NCBI GenBank assembly: GCA_008501785.1
Contig: QQUD01000474.1
Span: forward strand, 1-6,095
Source: Chloroflexota bacterium
GTDB lineage: Bacteria > Chloroflexota > Anaerolineae > Promineifilales > Promineifilaceae
Length of the DNA: 6,095 nucleotides
Direction of reading: 5' to 3'
Shown here: piece by piece, positions 394 to 6,044 of the stretch
How the letters are laid out: every line of letters begins with the position of its first letter
How positions within the stretch are numbered: the stretch's first letter is position 1
Notes under the pieces: generated by a model
Database searches by the model: none
Told to the model about the DNA's origin: nothing
What the model saw: the letters and a program-made list of their open reading frames with translations, nothing else
Position numbers and translations under genes: made by a program

Positions 394-1365
394 TTATTTA
401 TAAGCAGCGATTTGGGCGTAAACGGCCGTTTCATCCACCCCCATGCACTCATTCACAATCAAGCCACTTCGCAGTTCAAAGTGGGAAATGCCGAGCAGGG
501 TTAGGGGACAACCGGTGGGGGAACCGTAACGGCCGTTTCCCTCAAAGCTACCGCAGTAAGACCAGCGCAGTGCGACACGGATTGGCCGCTCGGGTTCTTG
601 GCGAACGATGACGTGGTGGGGGTGAAAACGGCCGTTTGGAATAGATGCCAGGATAGATGAGAGGCGGGTGGCGGTGCGGAAACGGCCGTAACACAAATCA
701 CCAGCCGGTCCTTCAAACCGCACAGCCCGATCATACCTTTCTTGCATGACGTTCAGATTTTTCTTGTTCCAGATGGCGTCATAAGCATCTACAATTTGGT
801 TTGCAATCGTTTGATCACCTGTCATTGTGGTGCCATTAGGGTCTGCCCAACGCTGCTGCATAGCATCATTGCCAATGGTGTACGCATCTCGATTTCCCTG
901 CCCGAGAGATGTTCCATGTGCAATCGGATCAAGCCCTAGCTGGCGCACAATCGCCGCCTGATCCCGAATCAGCCATTCACGCACCACCTGATTATCGCGG
1001 CAGAGGCAGTCCGCAATTGCTAACAAAGTAATCGGCTGATTCGTCGCGTTTCCAAATGCGCCGCTGCCCAAATGTGTTGCCGTGGATCGCACGCGATGCG
1101 AAGAGTAAAACCCCTCGTGCTTGTCGCCAATGATCACATCTTCGGCAAACAGCTCCCGATCAGGAAATTCATGCATCGTTTCCAGCGTGTGCTGCACCAC
1201 TTTTTCAACGGTGTTGGTCACACCATGTGGTGTAAACACGGGGCACTTCGGTGCATACCATTCATTAATCAGACCGATACCACGTTCTTCCCAAATTCGA
1301 TACGTGATGTCGATGATATATTGCTCTGGCGTTTTAAATTCTGGTGCAAAATTTTGCATGCCCAT
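394..1365 (-). CDS. Tandem two-domain SnoaL/NTF2-like protein, function unknown
   Basis: A 323-residue protein, about twice the length of a usual SnoaL-like polyketide cyclase domain. It appears to hold two such domains: about residues 14-146 (beginning EQYIIDITYRIWEERGIGLI, with W-Y-A and H-x-V-R-S-T segments) and about 188-321 (beginning ANQIVDAYDAIWNKKNLNVM). Both open with an I-[IV]-D-x-x-Y/D-x-IW helix and both contain charged, aromatic-rich strands, as expected for cone-shaped alpha+beta barrels. The family contains cyclases, dehydratases, isomerases and non-catalytic binding proteins, so no reaction can be assigned. No signal peptide is visible, so it is probably cytoplasmic. The start at 1365 lies 7 bases after the permease stop, so it is probably co-transcribed and perhaps translationally coupled. 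The ribosome site is weak and a second ATG two codons in (1359-1357) is an alternative start. Its 3' third carries four copies of the ACGGCCGT palindrome. Its place between sugar permeases and a transaldolase suggests a role in sugar or sugar-derivative metabolism (inference). Confidence 0.75.
   Translation of the reverse strand: MGMQNFAPEFKTPEQYIIDITYRIWEERGIGLINEWYAPKCPVFTPHGVTNTVEKVVQHTLETMHEFPDRELFAEDVIIGDKHEGFYSSHRVRSTATHLGSGAFGNATNQPITLLAIADCLCRDNQVVREWLIRDQAAIVRQLGLDPIAHGTSLGQGNRDAYTIGNDAMQQRWADPNGTTMTGDQTIANQIVDAYDAIWNKKNLNVMQERYDRAVRFEGPAGDLCYGRFRTATRLSSILASIPNGRFHPHHVIVRQEPERPIRVALRWSYCGSFEGNGRYGSPTGCPLTLLGISHFELRSGLIVNECMGVDETAVYAQIAAYK
420..691. repeat. Cluster of four ACGGCCGT palindromes inside the SnoaL-like gene
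   Basis: Copies: AAACGGCCGTTT at 420-431, AACGGCCGTT at 528-537, AAACGGCCGTTT at 626-637, and AAACGGCCGTAA at 680-691. Centres are about 107, 99 and 54 bases apart. In the gene they encode E-T-A-V, N-G-R-Y, N-G-R-F and Y-G-R-F, so at least two codon phases are used here. Confidence 0.9.
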
Positions 1366-1372
1366 GATTGTT

Positions 1373-2200
1373 TTACTTCACAGCTCCCATTGTCATCCCT
1401 TGCACAAAATGTTTGCGAATTGTCAGCGACAAAATAAACACCGGAATCATCACAATCAGCCCCGTGGCCGACATCCAATCCCAGCGAATGCCTGTCGCCG
1501 TATTTGTACTCAACAGGCCAATCGTCAGCGTGCGTGCTTCCTGCCGCGTTAGAATGAGGGCGTACAGGAATTCATTCCAGGTGATGATGAAGGAGAAAAC
1601 GCCAGCAGTAATGATACTGGGCGCCAGTAAGGGCAGGGTGATATAGCGCAAGGTTTGGAACTCGTTACAGCCGTCAATCAACGACGCCTGCTCAATTTCG
1701 GTGGGCAGAGCATCGACAAAGCCTTTTATCATCCAAATAGAATAGGGCAGAACAATAGATAAATTGATCCAAATTAGACCGATTCTTGTATCCACCAATT
1801 GCAATTGTCTAAAGAGAGCGAAGAAAGGCAGGACGACAACCACCGGCGGCAAAAATTGCGTAACCAGAACCCAAATGAGTAACGGCCGTTTCCCCCGAAA
1901 TGTATAACGCGAAAAAGCATAGGCCGCCATCACTGCTAAAGGCAAGGCAATCAACACCGTACTGGTAGAAATCACAAGACTGTTGACCGTAAGCGGCCAA
2001 AAAGCCAGCGGGTCTTGAAAAATAGCACGGAAGGAATCCAGCGTCGGCGCAAAGCGGAGTTCTGTTGAAAATACGTACCGCTCTGGCTTAAAAGCCGTGA
2101 TTGCTATCCAAAAAATGGGGAATATCAGGAACAAAATGATCAATATACCAGCAAAACCATTCGCTAAATCACCTAATTTCTTGCTGAGTTTATAATTCAT
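1373..2200 (-). CDS. Carbohydrate ABC transporter permease, MalG type (CUT1 family)
   Basis: An inner-membrane permease of 275 residues from the ATG at 2200, a normal length for the MalG side of a CUT1 importer. About six hydrophobic helices are visible (near residues 13-35, 72-98, 107-130, 139-163, 192-216 and 242-262). The cytoplasmic EAA loop, which docks the ATPase, is clear at about 168-195: E-x-E-Q-A-S-L-I-D-G, then Y-I-T-L-P-L-L-A-P. The segment ITWNEFLYALILT near 206-218 and a C-terminal QGMTMGAVK are typical of the family. The frame could open at a TTG at 2203, but the ATG at 2200 is better: it overlaps the TGA of the preceding permease as TGATG and has GGGAGG 8 bases upstream. This arrangement implies translational coupling of the two permeases. 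It would pair with the upstream permease and an ATPase encoded elsewhere. One copy of the ACGGCCGT palindrome lies in codons 103-106. Substrate unknown. Confidence 0.93.
   Translation of the reverse strand: MNYKLSKKLGDLANGFAGILIILFLIFPIFWIAITAFKPERYVFSTELRFAPTLDSFRAIFQDPLAFWPLTVNSLVISTSTVLIALPLAVMAAYAFSRYTFRGKRPLLIWVLVTQFLPPVVVVLPFFALFRQLQLVDTRIGLIWINLSIVLPYSIWMIKGFVDALPTEIEQASLIDGCNEFQTLRYITLPLLAPSIITAGVFSFIITWNEFLYALILTRQEARTLTIGLLSTNTATGIRWDWMSATGLIVMIPVFILSLTIRKHFVQGMTMGAVK
1881..1891. repeat. ACGGCCGT palindrome copy in the second permease gene
   Basis: AACGGCCGTTT. Read on the gene strand it is in the phase AAA CGG CCG TTA (K-R-P-L), a third codon phase different from all the other coding copies. 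Confidence 0.85.
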
Positions 2201-3074
2201 CAAATGCCTCCCTTACCATACAGCGCACGAACGTAAAAGTAAGCCAAAATAGACATGACAATGATGAGAATATAAGAAAGCGCCGAGGCATAACCCATAT
2301 CCAGCGTTACGAATGCCGTCTGATACACATAATAATTGAGCGTCTGCGTAGCTCGCCCCGGCCCGCCTCCGGTCATTGTCACCACCTGGTCAAACATTTT
2401 GAGAGAAAAGATAGTCTTTAGCAACGTGGCAATGACGATTACGGGGCTAAGCAGAGGGAGAGTGATGTGGCGAAAAAGCTGCCAATTATTCGTCCCTTCT
2501 ACCTTCGCCGATTCAAAGATGTCGGTGGGAATGGCATTGAGCGCACCAATGAACATGAGCGCCATCAGCGGCGCCCAGCCATATGTTTCCGTCACCGATA
2601 ACCAGAATAAGGCCCAAAACTCATTTGCTAACCAGACCAGATCGGCTGAAAGTGGAGAAATAAGTCAATCAATGCATCGAGAATGCCATACTCGGGATTG
2701 AGCATAAAGCGGAAGGTGTAACCTTTGAGTGCCGGACTGACGGCAAAAGGAAAGATAAGCAAGGTTTTGATAAACATATTAAACCCGCCCGGTTTTTGTA
2801 ATATCAGCGCCATGCCCAAACCAATGAGAATCGTTAACCCCACAGAAAAGACCGTAAAAATAGCCGTCACCTTTATGCTATTCACAAAAAAACGGTCATC
2901 AAAAGCACGCAAATAGTTGTCAAAACCAATAAATTTCCCAGGTGTAGGCGAGCGGGACAACTGCCAGCGTCGAAAACTGGAACTAAGTGCAAACAACAGC
3001 GGATAGGCTGAAGTCGCAGCTATGACCAGCAGCGCTGGCGCTAATAAAGTAAAAATGAGAGATTTTCTTTGCAT
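2200..3074 (-). pseudogene. Carbohydrate ABC transporter permease, MalF/UgpA type, split by a -1 frameshift
   Basis: The 5' part (3074 to the TAG at 2630-2628) gives 148 residues: an N-terminal helix, a periplasmic stretch with FIGFDNYLRAF, and helices near 68-92 and 100-118. The 3' part continues in another frame to the TGA at 2202-2200. It contains the EAA loop (F-E-S-A-K-V-E-G, then H-I-T-L-P-L-L-S-P) and the TGGGPGRATQTL motif usual in MalF-type permeases. The second frame stays open upstream through LVWLANEFWALFWLS, so it does not really begin at the GTG at 2595. Adding one T to the TTT run at 2660-2658 joins the halves into 291 residues, the normal family length, with the expected F-S-P-L-S-A-D-L-V-W-L junction. 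The ATG at 3074 follows AGGAGG at 3081-3086. A lone restart at the GTG would lack the first helices. Either a recent disabling deletion or a sequencing or assembly error; if the base is restored this is a normal transporter subunit. Confidence 0.88.
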
Positions 3075-3147
3075 TCTTTTCCTCCTTCCAAAATGCCAAC
3101 ATTCTCAACAAGAAGCTCCCAATCAAACCGCACTCCATTCCCCTATA

Positions 3148-3185
3148 TAAAAATGAGGCGGAGTCGTTACTCCGCCTCATTTTTA
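3148..3185 (-). terminator. Strong intrinsic terminator or attenuator hairpin after the binding-protein gene
   Basis: Two perfectly complementary 17-base arms (3148-3164 and 3169-3185) flank a 4-base loop. The GC-rich centre is GAGGCGGAGT / ACTCCGCCTC, with A-rich bases on one side and T-rich bases on the other. On the minus strand the stem begins 14 bases after the binding-protein stop and ends in a T run followed by ATAT, the form of a rho-independent terminator. The symmetry would let it act on either strand. It lies in the 125-base gap between binding protein and first permease, so it most likely ends most transcripts there while some read through, or protects the 3' end of the binding-protein mRNA (inference). 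Confidence 0.9.
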
Positions 3186-3199
3186 ATTTGACAAACTAA

Positions 3200-4711
3200 T
3201 TAGTCGTAATAACCAGCGCGTTCCATCACTGCGCGAATATCTTCTGCGACTTCATCCAGTGTTTCTTGGACATCAGCGCCATTAGCAGCCATATCGTTGA
3301 TGGCCACTTCCAGAAGTGAGAGAATTTCCGGCCATTCCGGAAGCAATGCTTGCGAGCGAGCAGTTTCTAATACTTCCGCACCCACTGCCTGCAAGCCACC
3401 ATGCGCGGCATTGACTTCTTCATCAGCCAACACACTCAAGCGCACAGCCACATTTGTATCATACGCCGGATCATCGGCAGCAAGAACGATCTCTTTTTCG
3501 ATTTCCTCATTCAAGAAGAACTTCATGTATTCCCAAGCCGCATCTTGGTTGCGGGAGAATTTATTAATCCCCGTCTGCCAGATGTGACCGTATGACGAAG
3601 TGCCTTTACCTTCCCAGCCAGGCACTTTGGCGAAGCCAGCATTTTCACACACTTTGGCCGGATTAGCTTCGCAGTTGGTGCCGCGACTATACATCCACCA
3701 CCAACCGGTGAACATGGCCGCCCGACCTGCGTTGTATTCGGCATTGGCTTCTTGCTCATTAAAGGCCACGGAGCCGGGGCTGGAATAACCTTTGTTGAGA
3801 AGATCGATGTAACGCTGTGTCGCTTCTACACCTTCAGCGCTGTTGAATATTGGTTCAAAATTCTCATCAAAAATGTCGCCGCCATTGGACCACAACATGC
3901 TCTCCCAAACAAAAATATTCTGTCCACCGCCAACACCATAATACATGGAGGTAGGGTAGATTTTACTCCCTTCAGCATCGGTCAAGTCTGCCGCCAGAAT
4001 TGCCTCAGAGGCTGCTTCAAACTCGGCCCATGTTGTAGGCGGTTCAAGTCCCAGGTCGGCAAAAATATCCTCGCGATAGAACATCATAAAGGGATGGCCA
4101 CGTAGTGGGATACCGTAGCGAACACCACTAAGATAACCTAAACCAGCTTGAAGATAGGCGTCTGGATAGTTATCCAGGTCCCAACCATCTTGCTCTATAT
4201 AACCATCCAATGGCTGTAGGTAATTTTCGATACTGGGGCCCCAGGCATCAACGTAGGCAATCAGATCAAAGGCCGGTGAGCCAGCGGTTACTTCAGCGAT
4301 GATCTTGCTTTGAAACTCTGAAAAGGGTGAATCAGCCCAGTTGATAGTGATACCAGTTAATTCGGTGAATTCGGCAGAACGTTTATTGAGGGCGGCGAAT
4401 TGGGGCGCTGTGGCACAACAGATAAGGAAGTTGAGTTCGGTACCATCGTATGGCTTGCCGGGAGTAAGGCCATAGGGTAATTCTTCCATCTCTTCTTCTT
4501 CGGCCATGACTTCAACAACACGGGTGACTTCGACTTGTTCGGTAACGACTTCACCTTCTACAACGCGAGTGACTTCTACTTGCTCGGTGACGGTTTCAAT
4601 TTGCGTCTCTGTAACAACTCGGGTGACTTCAACTGTTTGTGGCTGGCAAGCTGCCAATAACCCGATCCCCAGAAGCAGTGTCAGCATAAGAAATAAGCGT
4701 GTCTTTTTCAA
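3200..4711 (-). CDS. Sugar ABC transporter substrate-binding lipoprotein (CUT1, extracellular family 1 type)
   Basis: A 503-residue extracytoplasmic binding protein that would capture a sugar and deliver it to the permeases. It starts with KK, a hydrophobic stretch (residues 6-21) and a lipobox L-L-A-A-C with the lipidated cysteine at 22. A Val/Glu/Thr-rich linker follows (about 23-80) with three V-E-V-T-R-V-V units and an acidic run of EEEE. The binding domain begins near 88: GTELNFLICCATAP, then GSPAFDLIAYVDAWGPSI, YGIPLRGHPFMMFYREDIF, PPTTWAEFEAA, WSNGGDIFDENFEPIFNS, and YNAGRAAMFTGWWWMYSRG, all in family order. Paired cysteines at 98-99 and at 347/355 may form disulfides. The start is a TTG at 4711-4709 with AGGAGG 8 bases upstream. 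It is longer than most relatives because of the linker. It is first in the operon after the control region and is followed by a terminator. The sugar cannot be named; the aromatic WWWMY cluster suits sugar stacking. Confidence 0.95.
   Translation of the reverse strand: MKKTRLFLMLTLLLGIGLLAACQPQTVEVTRVVTETQIETVTEQVEVTRVVEGEVVTEQVEVTRVVEVMAEEEEMEELPYGLTPGKPYDGTELNFLICCATAPQFAALNKRSAEFTELTGITINWADSPFSEFQSKIIAEVTAGSPAFDLIAYVDAWGPSIENYLQPLDGYIEQDGWDLDNYPDAYLQAGLGYLSGVRYGIPLRGHPFMMFYREDIFADLGLEPPTTWAEFEAASEAILAADLTDAEGSKIYPTSMYYGVGGGQNIFVWESMLWSNGGDIFDENFEPIFNSAEGVEATQRYIDLLNKGYSSPGSVAFNEQEANAEYNAGRAAMFTGWWWMYSRGTNCEANPAKVCENAGFAKVPGWEGKGTSSYGHIWQTGINKFSRNQDAAWEYMKFFLNEEIEKEIVLAADDPAYDTNVAVRLSVLADEEVNAAHGGLQAVGAEVLETARSQALLPEWPEILSLLEVAINDMAANGADVQETLDEVAEDIRAVMERAGYYD
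4514..4633 (-). repeat. Threefold V-E-V-T-R-V-V coding repeat in the binding-protein linker
   Basis: Residues 27-33, 45-51 and 60-66 of the binding protein are each V-E-V-T-R-V-V. Their DNA copies are at 4613-4633, 4559-4579 and 4514-4534, with related TE/VTEQ spacers. The DNA copies differ at several third codon positions, so the protein pattern is conserved more than the DNA. It probably acts as a stalk between the lipid anchor and the binding domain. Confidence 0.9.
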
Positions 4712-4719
4712 TTTAGTTT

Positions 4720-4725
4720 CCTCCT
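4720..4725 (-). promoter_or_regulatory. Ribosome binding site fixing the TTG start of the binding protein
   Basis: AGGAGG on the minus strand, 8 bases before the TTG at 4711-4709. No ATG or GTG lies at a suitable distance, and the reading from TTG gives a proper lipoprotein signal peptide, so this site decides the unusual start codon. Confidence 0.85.
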
Positions 4726-4742
4726 AAAATTCTCAATTTATT

Positions 4743-4755
4743 GTTACTATGTAAC
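4743..4755. repeat. Short inverted repeat GTTAC-TAT-GTAAC in the leader of the binding-protein gene
   Basis: Five-base arms around a 3-base spacer, 18 bases upstream of the AGGAGG site. It could be a minor operator or a weak mRNA hairpin near the ribosome site. It is short and AT-rich enough to be chance. Confidence 0.3.
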
Positions 4756-4793
4756 TGTTAAGATGCCCGGAAATGGCTCGGTCTGGAAACCGG

Positions 4794-4807
4794 CCATAGC
4801 GGTATGG
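4794..4807. promoter_or_regulatory. Candidate operator for the LacI-family repressor
   Basis: CCATAGCGGTATGG is a 14-base palindrome matching at six of seven pairs with CG at its exact centre, the form typical of operators bound by LacI-family proteins that insert a hinge leucine at a central CpG. The neighbouring repressor has such a hinge (PNALARSL). The site is 83 bases upstream of the TTG start and begins 15 bases past the TTGGCA hexamer on the minus strand, where bound repressor could block RNA polymerase. A palindrome of this quality can occur by chance in a 300-base region, so this is a suggestion only. Confidence 0.35.
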
Positions 4808-4851
4808 TTAAACCTGTGTTTTGCCAACTGTTTGAATCTATTTTTTGATGC

Positions 4852-4863
4852 TCACCTCCTCAT
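4852..4863 (-). other. Orphan Shine-Dalgarno-like site and three-codon mini-ORF (ATG AGG AGG TGA)
   Basis: The minus strand reads ATGAGGAGGTGA. This is both a near-perfect anti-16S match (AGGAGGTGA) with no usable start codon 5-10 bases downstream and a minimal Met-Arg-Arg-stop frame. It may be chance, a remnant of a lost gene start, or a leader element where ribosomes stall on tandem AGG codons. Confidence 0.3.
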
Positions 4864-4950
4864 ATGCTTTTACAGGATTCAAAGGGACACACCTATATTT
4901 TTGTGCTATAACATGATTATCTACAGGTGTAATGCCTTTGGATACATAAT

Positions 4951-4990
4951 GAGCCACTCTTACGATTTTTGCGAAGGGTATGGGTGGCTC
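4951..4990. repeat. Imperfect inverted repeat downstream of the repressor gene
   Basis: Arms GAGCCAC (4951-4957) and GTGGCTC (4984-4990) enclose 26 bases that can form a smaller imperfect hairpin (CTTACG against CGAAG). On the minus strand it begins 32 bases after the repressor stop, the right place for a terminator, but no T run follows on that strand. On the plus strand TTTCTTT follows, yet no plus-strand gene needs ending. Possibly a weak or factor-dependent terminator. Confidence 0.35.
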
Positions 4991-5008
4991 TTTCTTTATG
5001 AATTTGTT

Positions 5009-5018
5009 ACGGCCGTTT
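5009..5018. repeat. ACGGCCGT palindrome copy after the repressor stop
   Basis: ACGGCCGTTT, ending four bases beyond the repressor stop codon. It is the only intergenic copy in the window, so the element is not confined to coding sequence. Confidence 0.85.
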
Positions 5019-5021
5019 TCC

Positions 5022-6044
5022 TCAACCCACTTCCTGCTCCAGCCGCCGGGTCGATGCCCGTTCAATTAAACGTCCAGGCTCCAACCGCAAAACGGGAGGC
5101 ATACCAGGTGCTTTTGTGCGCTCATTCAGCAAAGCTATCGTGGTGTCAATCATTTTGCTCACAGGCTGGCGAATCGTTGTCAGTGCATAGGATGGCCTGC
5201 GACATGCCGGAATATCATCAAATCCGACCACACACAGCTCGTCTGGTATACGCATACCCAGCTCAAATCGTGCTGCATCCATGCAGCCCATGGCGATGAT
5301 GTCGTTGGCGCAAAAAATGGCGTCGGGTGGATTGTCTTGGTTTAGCAAACGGATGGCTGCATCAAACCCCGATTGGAAAGAATAGGTTCCCGGCTCGCGT
5401 TGATACTGTGTTATGCCGTGTGCTTGCAGCCGATTACGAAACCCTTTTTCACGGTCAATATTGGTTGATGTGTTTTCGTTGCCAGCAATAAACGCTAAAC
5501 GCTGTTTGCCCAAATTGAGCAGATAGTCTGCGACCATCTCTCCACCCCTCAAATTGTCGCACGATACGGCGCTGACAGCACTGTCGAGTGCGTATCGATT
5601 AAACAAAATGACAGTCATCCCCTGCCTGGCGCACTCGTTTGCAATTTCAGATGAAATCGTAGCCGAAGCAATGATCATCGCTTCCATCTGATATTGCAAG
5701 GCGCGAGGCAGAATATCATCAACATCCCCATTCGGCGGCACATGAAATAACAAAACTTGTTTATCAAGTTCCTGAAACCGAAGGGTAAATTTTTCGAGCA
5801 CATTAGGGTAAAAGGGATTGGTGATGTCGGCCATGACAATGCCCACTAAGTTGGAGCGTTGTGTGGTGAGGCTGCGGGCGAGCGCGTTAGGTTTGTAGCC
5901 AAGTTTGTAGGCCGCCGACAGAACGCGCTCTTTTGTCTGGGGTGTGAAACGGCCGTTTCCGCTCAACACCCGCGAGACAGTAGATTGAGAGACACTCGCC
6001 TCCCGTGCGACATCAACCGAGGTTATCCGCTTTTTAACCATCAT
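5022..6044 (-). CDS. LacI-family transcriptional repressor
   Basis: A 340-residue regulator of normal LacI family length. The N-terminal helix-turn-helix spans about residues 7-31 (ITSVDVAREASVSQSTVSRV), with Q20, S21 and R25 at the base-reading positions of the recognition helix. The hinge helix PNALARSL (52-59) ends in the leucine that inserts into the minor groove in this family. A periplasmic-binding-protein-like sensor domain follows from about 66 (NLVGIVMADITNPFYPNVLE) through CDNLRGGEMVADYLL, DAIFCANDIIAMGCMDAA and VVGFDDIPACRRPSYALTTI, the usual family landmarks. It likely binds a sugar or sugar phosphate and controls the adjacent transport operon, with which it shares strand and direction. 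The ATG at 6044 is followed at once by another at 6041; the upstream ribosome site is weak (AGAG about 11 bases away). The codons for N30-G31-R32-F33, just after the recognition helix, contain the 14-base GAAACGGCCGTTTC palindrome. Confidence 0.95.
   Translation of the reverse strand: MMVKKRITSVDVAREASVSQSTVSRVLSGNGRFTPQTKERVLSAAYKLGYKPNALARSLTTQRSNLVGIVMADITNPFYPNVLEKFTLRFQELDKQVLLFHVPPNGDVDDILPRALQYQMEAMIIASATISSEIANECARQGMTVILFNRYALDSAVSAVSCDNLRGGEMVADYLLNLGKQRLAFIAGNENTSTNIDREKGFRNRLQAHGITQYQREPGTYSFQSGFDAAIRLLNQDNPPDAIFCANDIIAMGCMDAARFELGMRIPDELCVVGFDDIPACRRPSYALTTIRQPVSKMIDTTIALLNERTKAPGMPPVLRLEPGRLIERASTRRLEQEVG
5946..5959. repeat. Fullest palindrome copy (GAAACGGCCGTTTC) within the repressor DNA-binding domain codons
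   Basis: A perfect 14-base palindrome, the longest of the seven copies, in the phase AAC GGC CGT (N-G-R). Confidence 0.9.

Follow-up and report, generated by a model that had tools for sequence, protein, structure and literature searches.

Lineage-specific edges of a highly iterated palindrome in one order of Chloroflexota and in viral contigs

Palindromic octamers at the locus

The window examined here, a 6,095-nucleotide stretch of contig QQUD01000474.1 of a Chloroflexota bacterium, encodes a SnoaL-type ester-cyclase-like protein, ABC permease frames, a solute-binding protein, and a LacI-family regulator, and it carries seven exact copies of the palindromic octamer ACGGCCGT, starting at positions 422, 529, 628, 682, 1882, 5009, and 5949. 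All seven had been recognized in the initial annotation, which placed the last copy one base too far along (5950–5957 rather than 5949–5956) and estimated that about 0.1 copy would be expected by chance. Dinucleotide-preserving shuffles of the window agree with that estimate (mean 0.09, maximum 2), and none of 200 reaches seven. The octamer is the commonest palindrome of its length in the window (seven copies; the runner-up has two), and each of the seven CGGCCG hexamers present lies within ACGGCCGT, five of them within AACGGCCGTT.

The cyclase-like gene (394..1365, minus strand, 323 amino acids; Pfam PF07366 and PF12680) hosts four copies. The first (422..429) stands in phase 0 and reads ACG GCC GT; the next three stand in phase 1, over Asn-Gly-Arg (529..536 and 628..635) and Tyr-Gly-Arg (682..689). 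A fifth copy (1882..1889) lies in phase 2 of the gene for an ABC transporter inner-membrane protein (1373..2203, minus strand; PF00528), where it reads AAA CGG CCG over Lys-Arg-Pro. The sixth (5009..5016) is intergenic, 5 bases beyond the stop of the LacI-family regulator gene (5022..6044, minus strand; PF00356 and PF13377), and the seventh (5949..5956) falls within that gene, in phase 1 over Asn-Gly-Arg. The six coding copies, all in minus-strand genes, have phases 0, 1, 1, 1, 2, and 1 in window order, as derived by hand from the list of open reading frames; together with the intergenic copy, they confirm the earlier observation that the word occurs in all three phases and once between genes. 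Those in phase 1 (529, 628, 682, and 5949) span AAC or TAC followed by GGC CGT. An effect of codons or of a protein motif, such as Gly-Arg or a comparable pair, would find some support here, as a Gly-Arg pair underlies four of the six coding copies, three of them in the cyclase gene, where the residues beneath them are well conserved.

Wider tests were made on relatives of the window's genome (G-numbers denote genomes and L-numbers loci or contig stretches), drawn from a class and a 56-genome order that, going by homolog names, we guess to be Anaerolineae and Promineifilales. The closest relative of the window within the order is G001, in which two contigs match at 73–78% DNA identity (75% over positions 1–324, 73% over 400–2834, 77% over 2821–3073, and 78% over 3151–4657). 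The LacI part has no match in G001, and the copies at 5009 and 5949 are without an aligned relative. At the other sites G001 reads ACGGATGT (422), GCGACCGT (529), the one-off word TCGGCCGT (628), and the exact octamer (682), and the copy at 1882 is not kept; in G004, the copy at 422 is kept together with its flanks. Named homologs of the cyclase-like protein come mostly from Chloroflexota (among them Candidatus Leptofilum, Promineifilaceae, and Chloroflexi bacterium TSY), with one from Pseudomonadota. Scanning genome contigs gave 25 loci, and a plasmid search found no match. The second ABC permease of the window (2200–3074, minus strand) is present as two frames (2200–2595 and 2628–3074) parted by a stop, of which only the first listed matches PF00528; the split reflects a frameshift, whether genuine or introduced by assembly.

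Genome-wide excess and edge dialects

Dispersed words of this kind recall HIP1 (GCGATCGC), the highly iterated palindrome (HIP) of cyanobacteria, which was described in 1995 and, in the portions of the literature available to us, is still without an agreed function and is said to be kept by selection (PMC6604393). A comparable genome-wide enrichment had been proposed for the present word, along with a comparison of related genomes. Counting AACGGCCGTT in 396 genomes of the class, we find 79 to 5060 copies in 23 of them and at most 29 in the rest; all 23 fall in the one order of 56, within which 34 genomes hold at least 79. The richest carries 5060 copies in 6.2 Mb, against 7 of the reversed word. 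A pooled sample of the 28 genomes whose edge dialect, defined below, is ACGGCCGT (A dialect; 1.17 Mb) contains 1,680 copies of the octamer, a pooled host density of 1.44 per kb, and an order-3 Markov model trained after masking CGGCCG is exceeded 79-, 91-, 121-, and 109-fold in four A-dialect groups. An unmasked order-5 model, whose training sequence includes the word, yields a 2.3-fold excess of ACGGCCGT and a 3.7-fold excess of AACGGCCGTT in the pooled sample, the former to be read beside the masked figures, and puts the other three NCGGCCGN palindromes below 1.

ACGGCCGT is the top palindrome by excess in 18 A-dialect genomes sampled (13.8–140 kb each), and GCGATCGC is absent from the five top palindromes of each of 28 sampled genomes. 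In three A-dialect groups, the density is 1.4–1.8 per kb in genes and 0.9–1.25 between them, and coding copies occupy all phases, unevenly (for example, 207, 130, and 63). No even spacing was seen in the A-dialect groups, where distances are near random (coefficient of variation 1.1) with a slight deficit below 50 bp. Nor did we see the site avoidance typical of restriction-modification sites; genomes and viral stretches alike show a strong excess. In the relatives, then, this is a palindromic octamer far above Markov expectation genome-wide and dispersed across phases and intergenic DNA, as in the HIP class.

The word is a highly iterated palindrome with a constant core, CGGCCG, and lineage-specific edges. 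In a survey that sampled all 56 genomes of the order (3 to 162 kb each, including loci cut around methyltransferase and rpoB genes), 28 genomes have ACGGCCGT (A dialect; 1680 of 2651 CGGCCG), two have TCGGCCGA (T dialect, G403 and G100; 113 of 152), one has GCGGCCGC (G dialect, G187; 44 of 56), six have the bare core, and 19 have a weak dialect or none. In the bare-core genomes (G157, G287, G419, G004, G420, and G210), the density of CGGCCG is 3.6 per kb, or 6- to 58-fold the expected value; when five of them are pooled, each of the 16 edge combinations occurs 18 to 39 times, and one-off hexamers stand at 0.9–1.3 of expectation. Elsewhere in the order, G230, G278, and G327 show a weak excess of CCGGCCGG (38 of 174), G416, G417, G418, and G421 (samples of 3–13 kb) have CGGCCG at 3–7 times expectation with no clear edge, and twelve further genomes have it at 0.5–3.2 times expectation.

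Preferences extend beyond the octamer. A further A stands beside it in 90% of copies in G398 and G378, the G352 clade shows little preference at the adjoining base, and A or T adjoins it in 96–97% of copies in the T-dialect genomes. Three and four bases out, the A-dialect groups also favor G, intergenic copies included. When the two sides are tested apart, the A beside the octamer and the G at the third and fourth positions are about equally preferred on left and right, with neither side depending on the other, as expected for two equal half-sites. Such graded preferences, reaching four bases out, would suit a chromosome-organizing or nucleoid DNA-binding dimer, as would the presence of copies everywhere, coding and intergenic, in three A-dialect groups. 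However, near-random spacing does not favor a protein of this type, and enrichment in phage genes (see below) would be unexpected for one; we consider it distinctly improbable as the source of the word.

To place the dialects, a tree was computed by a quick method with SH-aLRT support from rpoB, usable in 50 of the 56 genomes (four A-dialect genomes are without a usable gene). Twenty-three A-dialect genomes and the HIP-poor G341 form one clade (support 88), neighbored by the A-dialect G001 and a HIP-poor group of seven genomes around G073. Either branching order of these two neighbors is compatible with the tree, so that loss of the A dialect in the G073 group and two separate gains of it are both possible. 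Bare-core G157 and T-dialect G403 are sisters, with the other T-dialect genome, G100, next to them, and four bare-core genomes form a separate clade; the edges have therefore switched at least twice while the core stayed the same. No excess of the HIP is seen in G341, whose 4.7 Mb contain 29 AACGGCCGTT and 36 of the reversed control; this genome represents one apparent loss within the HIP-rich clade.

HIP1 and the alternate HIPs of cyanobacteria share much of this architecture: in the part of Elhai 2015 accessible to us (PMC4390886), they are palindromic octamers over a palindromic hexamer core at about one per kb, their one-off words are biased to the outer bases, and alternates replace HIP1 in some lineages. 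Compared with HIP1, the present core is CGGCCG, the word is ACGGCCGT, and the phylum is another; within a single order the edges switch between A, T, G, weakly C, and none while the core stays constant. We found no report of the word in Chloroflexota in the titles or abstract openings of the open-licence literature, among the matches listed. It is an independent case of a HIP in a phylum other than cyanobacteria.

Retention in relatives and occurrence in viral DNA

Copies are retained between relatives far better than matched DNA. A 20-kb stretch of G410 holds 39 copies, of which those that align are exact at 30 of 34 sites in G408 (84% overall identity), 27 of 33 in G409 (78%), and 16 of 21 in G411 (80%); composition-matched 8-mers are exact at 112 of 382 (29%), 87 of 352 (25%), and 55 of 197 (28%), respectively. 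In rpoB, where only windows with identical amino acids were compared, a copy in one A-dialect genome recurs exactly in another in 1396 of 1576 comparisons (89%), against 5994 of 28747 (21%) for matched 8-mers. The corresponding counts are 42 of 670 (6%) against 2504 of 11938 in HIP-poor genomes and 67 of 561 against 1484 of 13772 in genomes of other dialects. Copies occupy nine rpoB columns. Among the 23 A-dialect genomes that have sequence at these sites, four of the columns are common to 22, 20, 17, and 16. In G341, the two most widely shared columns read ACGGTCGT and ACGGTCGC, words that would fit decay after loss of a reader, the earlier presence of copies there being unproven. In the relatives, copies are maintained beyond neutral expectation. 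As a separate observation, locus L113 contains dispersed repeat families of ~30–75 bases (979–1009, 12570–12645, and 18530–18581) with many matches in G408, G409, and G411; two of the families match on both strands.

Retention at identical amino acids in A-dialect genomes, set against the low figure in HIP-poor genomes whose amino acids are alike, contradicts a codon or protein-motif effect, as do the use of all three phases, the intergenic copies, and the lineage-specific edges. Beyond the Gly-Arg pairs of the window, such an effect could draw on the uneven phases and on L003, where three or more ester-cyclase-like genes stand in tandem (1141–4127, by reading) and which comes from a genome outside the order. 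L003 holds nine ACGGCCGT in 8 kb, although its genome totals seven AACGGCCGTT; several of the nine lie in the cyclase genes at the same peptides, and the cluster reflects constraint on the peptides or, alternatively, a transfer out of some HIP-rich lineage. For the word at large we consider this explanation extremely improbable. The counts are not near the Markov expectation and the conservation is not explained by the protein, the two outcomes against which the initial annotation had staked its claim; its interpretation is supported, its suggested roles (a methylation mark, an organizing site, or a mutational hot motif) being candidates, and the lineage-specific edges and viral copies go beyond it.

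Viral DNA carries the same dialects as the genomes of the order. Among IMG/VR contig stretches, 94 contain GAAACGGCCGTTTC, and 38 of these carry at least five ACGGCCGT, one of them with 49 copies over 13.2 kb and another with 42 over 13.8 kb. With one copy left out of each, the 38 have a median of 1.75 per kb, which is no fair mean as they were chosen for richness, and 29 exceed the pooled host density. A second scan, made independent of any one flanked word, sought two octamers 30–60 bases apart; its counts, for stretches of at least 3 kb among the matches listed and with some stretches sharing a contig, are not population rates. Word-rich stretches number 22 of 107 for the A octamer (ACGGCCGT; 118 stretches examined of 120 among the matches listed), 3 of 113 for the T octamer (TCGGCCGA), and 0 of 113 for the control palindrome ACGCGCGT. 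The 22 rich A stretches hold 0–1 TCGGCCGA each, and two T stretches (L504 and L487; GC 51–52%) are without any ACGGCCGT; the third T stretch belongs to a contig of 68% GC in which other CGGCCG words abound and is probably due to chance.

Word-rich stretches encode phage proteins, including a terminase and portal (L340), tape measure (L348), head protease (L308 and L312), DnaB (L307), and primase (L331); of the ten proteins in the search that included those of L348, L308, L312, L307, and L331, five gave no match. Copies lie inside seven of the eight such phage genes checked, with seven in the portal gene and none in the DnaB gene. L270, with its ParA and FtsK-like genes, more closely resembles an integrative element or a plasmid, and some contigs may be proviruses. 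Methyltransferase-like frames in the viral stretches are diverse, with none common to them. Viral stretches in matching dialects, at host density or above, point to a benefit of the word itself, which could arise, for instance, if the DNA is taken for self.

A benefit could also come from a recognition word for DNA uptake or recombination, like the neisserial DNA uptake sequence (DUS) or Chi. The density of the word and its lineage dialects on a constant core parallel the DUS dialects of Neisseriaceae, which, in the part of the source available, likewise vary in their outer bases and reach thousands of copies per genome in some cases (PMC3630211). Uptake sequences are also reported to accumulate in mobile elements, with Pasteurellaceae prophages as an example (PMC7371117), and this would fit the viral stretches described above. 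Unlike DUS, however, which is non-palindromic and read by a pilin, the present word is a perfect palindrome without orientation or strand bias, and its reader is at most a candidate. We judge an uptake or Chi-like word quite unlikely. To our knowledge, the known uptake and Chi words are non-palindromic.

A candidate reader and what the word may mean

Cyanobacterial HIPs are linked to solitary methyltransferases in the available part of the same study (PMC4390886), and here one candidate enzyme tracks the dialect in part. HipM (a working name) is a candidate solitary N4/N6-type DNA methyltransferase of ~660–690 residues with a DPMMGGGTT motif ahead of TDPPYFD; it was found via the weak PF01555 matches of ten genomes, among which other proteins look like RNA methyltransferases. 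Counting as present any match with E below 1e-80, HipM occurs in 29 of 31 genomes with an 8-base dialect (A, 26 of 28; T, 2 of 2; G, 1 of 1) and in 0 of 6 bare-core genomes. Bare-core G157, which lacks it, is the sister of G403, which has both TCGGCCGA and HipM, and a match is also lacking in the HIP-poor G341, G405, and G313. Fisher's test, uncorrected for kinship and draft quality, gives p = 1e-5 for 8-base against bare-core genomes and 0.001 against all others.

Both methyltransferase motifs are present in 12 of 14 HipM frames examined. In common with DUF1156/CcrM-like methyltransferases, HipM matches PF01555 over the cut-off and the DUF1156 antiphage model in part, and it is predicted to resemble CcrM, the best match of a structural search that also returned N4-cytosine enzymes; the AlphaFold model used is a weak one (mean pLDDT 66, catalytic parts poor). 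It differs from those families in its length of ~660–690 residues and in placing motif I before motif IV, and it lies far under the NCBIfam cut-offs. Named close homologs include a "DNA methyltransferase" of Candidatus Leptofilum sp. (85–86%). By reading, no restriction gene lies directly beside HipM in G410 or G413. An HNH-type endonuclease-like frame stands two genes from HipM in G410 (L746, 1378–2127), and in G413 (L199, 12658–18715) HipM adjoins MoxR-type ATPase, DUF58-like, and transglutaminase-like genes, likewise named by reading. HipM is the best candidate reader of the 8-base dialects, with perhaps an even chance of being so.

Other enzymes were considered as readers and rejected. C5 methyltransferases (PF00145) belong to scattered families; 26 of the 56 genomes have hits, and half of those with the A dialect (14 of 28) have none. 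One C5 enzyme shared by G004, G419, and G157 was a candidate for the bare core; it is present also in HIP-poor G073 and looks Dcm-like, its PRK10458 match and best PDB entries being ones that we take to be Dcm. PF01555 enzymes as a whole are found in 52 of 56 genomes at E 0.001 (45 over the cut-off) and are scattered. G401, G402, G407, and G305 have 20 to 27 PF01555 matches each, many of them DNA methyltransferases.

A methyltransferase could also generate the word without giving it any function. In Elhai's cyanobacterial model, a methylated C biases mismatch repair, which gives rise to the word and preserves it as a by-product. MutL is over the cut-off in 51 of 56 genomes but fails to separate HIP-rich from HIP-poor ones and was set aside as a discriminator. 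As Elhai describes for HIP1 in the accessible part of that paper (PMC4390886), one-offs at the outer bases are raised in four A-dialect groups (TCGGCCGT 4.9–7.3-fold and GCGGCCGT 2.2–3.7-fold), and the core one-off ACCGCCGT is depleted in all four (0.21–0.63); on the other hand, CCGGCCGT is not clearly raised (0.9–2.0), and the remaining core one-offs scatter around expectation (0.3–2.5, small counts). The model further needs a G beside the methylated C, whereas the edges here are A, T, G, or none, with G in one genome only, and a viral density equal to or above that of the hosts is no obvious product of host repair. A functionless by-product of repair is, in our estimate, an unlikely origin.

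The word is most likely a methylation or recognition mark. More specifically, though tentatively, we read ACGGCCGT as the local dialect of a HIP that marks genomes within a single order of Chloroflexota, together with viral DNA sharing that dialect, a self-mark read in dialect; this is quite possible, if short of probable. The word would be the site of a sequence-specific DNA enzyme reading two equal half-sites, most likely HipM, as a solitary N4-cytosine/N6-adenine DNA methyltransferase, in the 8-base-dialect genomes and some other protein in the bare-core genomes. Marked, probably methylated sites at one to several per kb would label the cell's own DNA for repair, recombination, or nuclease protection, so that the sites would be under selection and a virus sharing them would gain. 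The edge base would shift when the specificity of the reader shifts.

Several observations weigh against this self-mark. HipM is present in 14 of the 19 weak- or no-dialect genomes of the order, including all eight of the G073 family, and its family occurs outside the order in genomes with few AACGGCCGTT (at E 1e-40, 75 of the 396 genomes in the class have it, order members included); HipM is therefore not sufficient. Two short stretches from HipM genomes outside the order (4.9 and 4.0 kb) show no dialect, being too little sequence to judge. G139 and G415 have the A dialect with a short weak HipM match or none in drafts whose completeness is not stated, so that HipM is not shown to be necessary. 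Bare-core genomes need a reader other than HipM, and one of them, G210, has no C5 and no N4/N6 methyltransferase match. The HipM match of T-dialect G100 is split over two frames, and those of G398, G409, G200, and G418 list internal stops; these last four matches begin before the likely start codon, and the stops may lie upstream of the start. In viral contigs, HipM matches (31 loci) have at most 32% identity over long matches, two of higher identity span only ~30 residues, and none lies in a stretch that passes the HIP filter. On the side of the sites themselves, one rpoB column is shared by 7 of 24 genomes and four are singletons, and nine columns in related genomes do not make independent comparisons. 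The synonymous-site comparison suggested at the outset holds for copies kept at identical amino acids and mostly absent from HIP-poor relatives, but not for the window's own sites, of which only one of five alignable copies (682) is kept in G001 and one of five (422) in G004. The prophage passage available from PMC7371117, together with the split frame of G100, slightly lowered our estimate for the self-mark and slightly raised that for an uptake word.

Two features set the system apart from HIP1: C5 enzymes do not track the word, and the same dialects recur in viral contigs. A bolder form of the self-mark, which we hold to be rather unlikely, is a switchable self-tag, in which each lineage would write its own dialect on the fixed CGGCCG, dialect-less DNA would be treated as foreign, and viruses would come under selection to carry the dialect of their hosts in their own genes, as densely as the hosts do or more so. 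The single core with its various edge dialects, the one apparent loss (G341), and the viral contigs whose dialects match together provide natural replicates, through which the reader, the function, and virus-host matching become testable by comparison. If the switchable self-tag is true, the word would record the pairing of virus and host.

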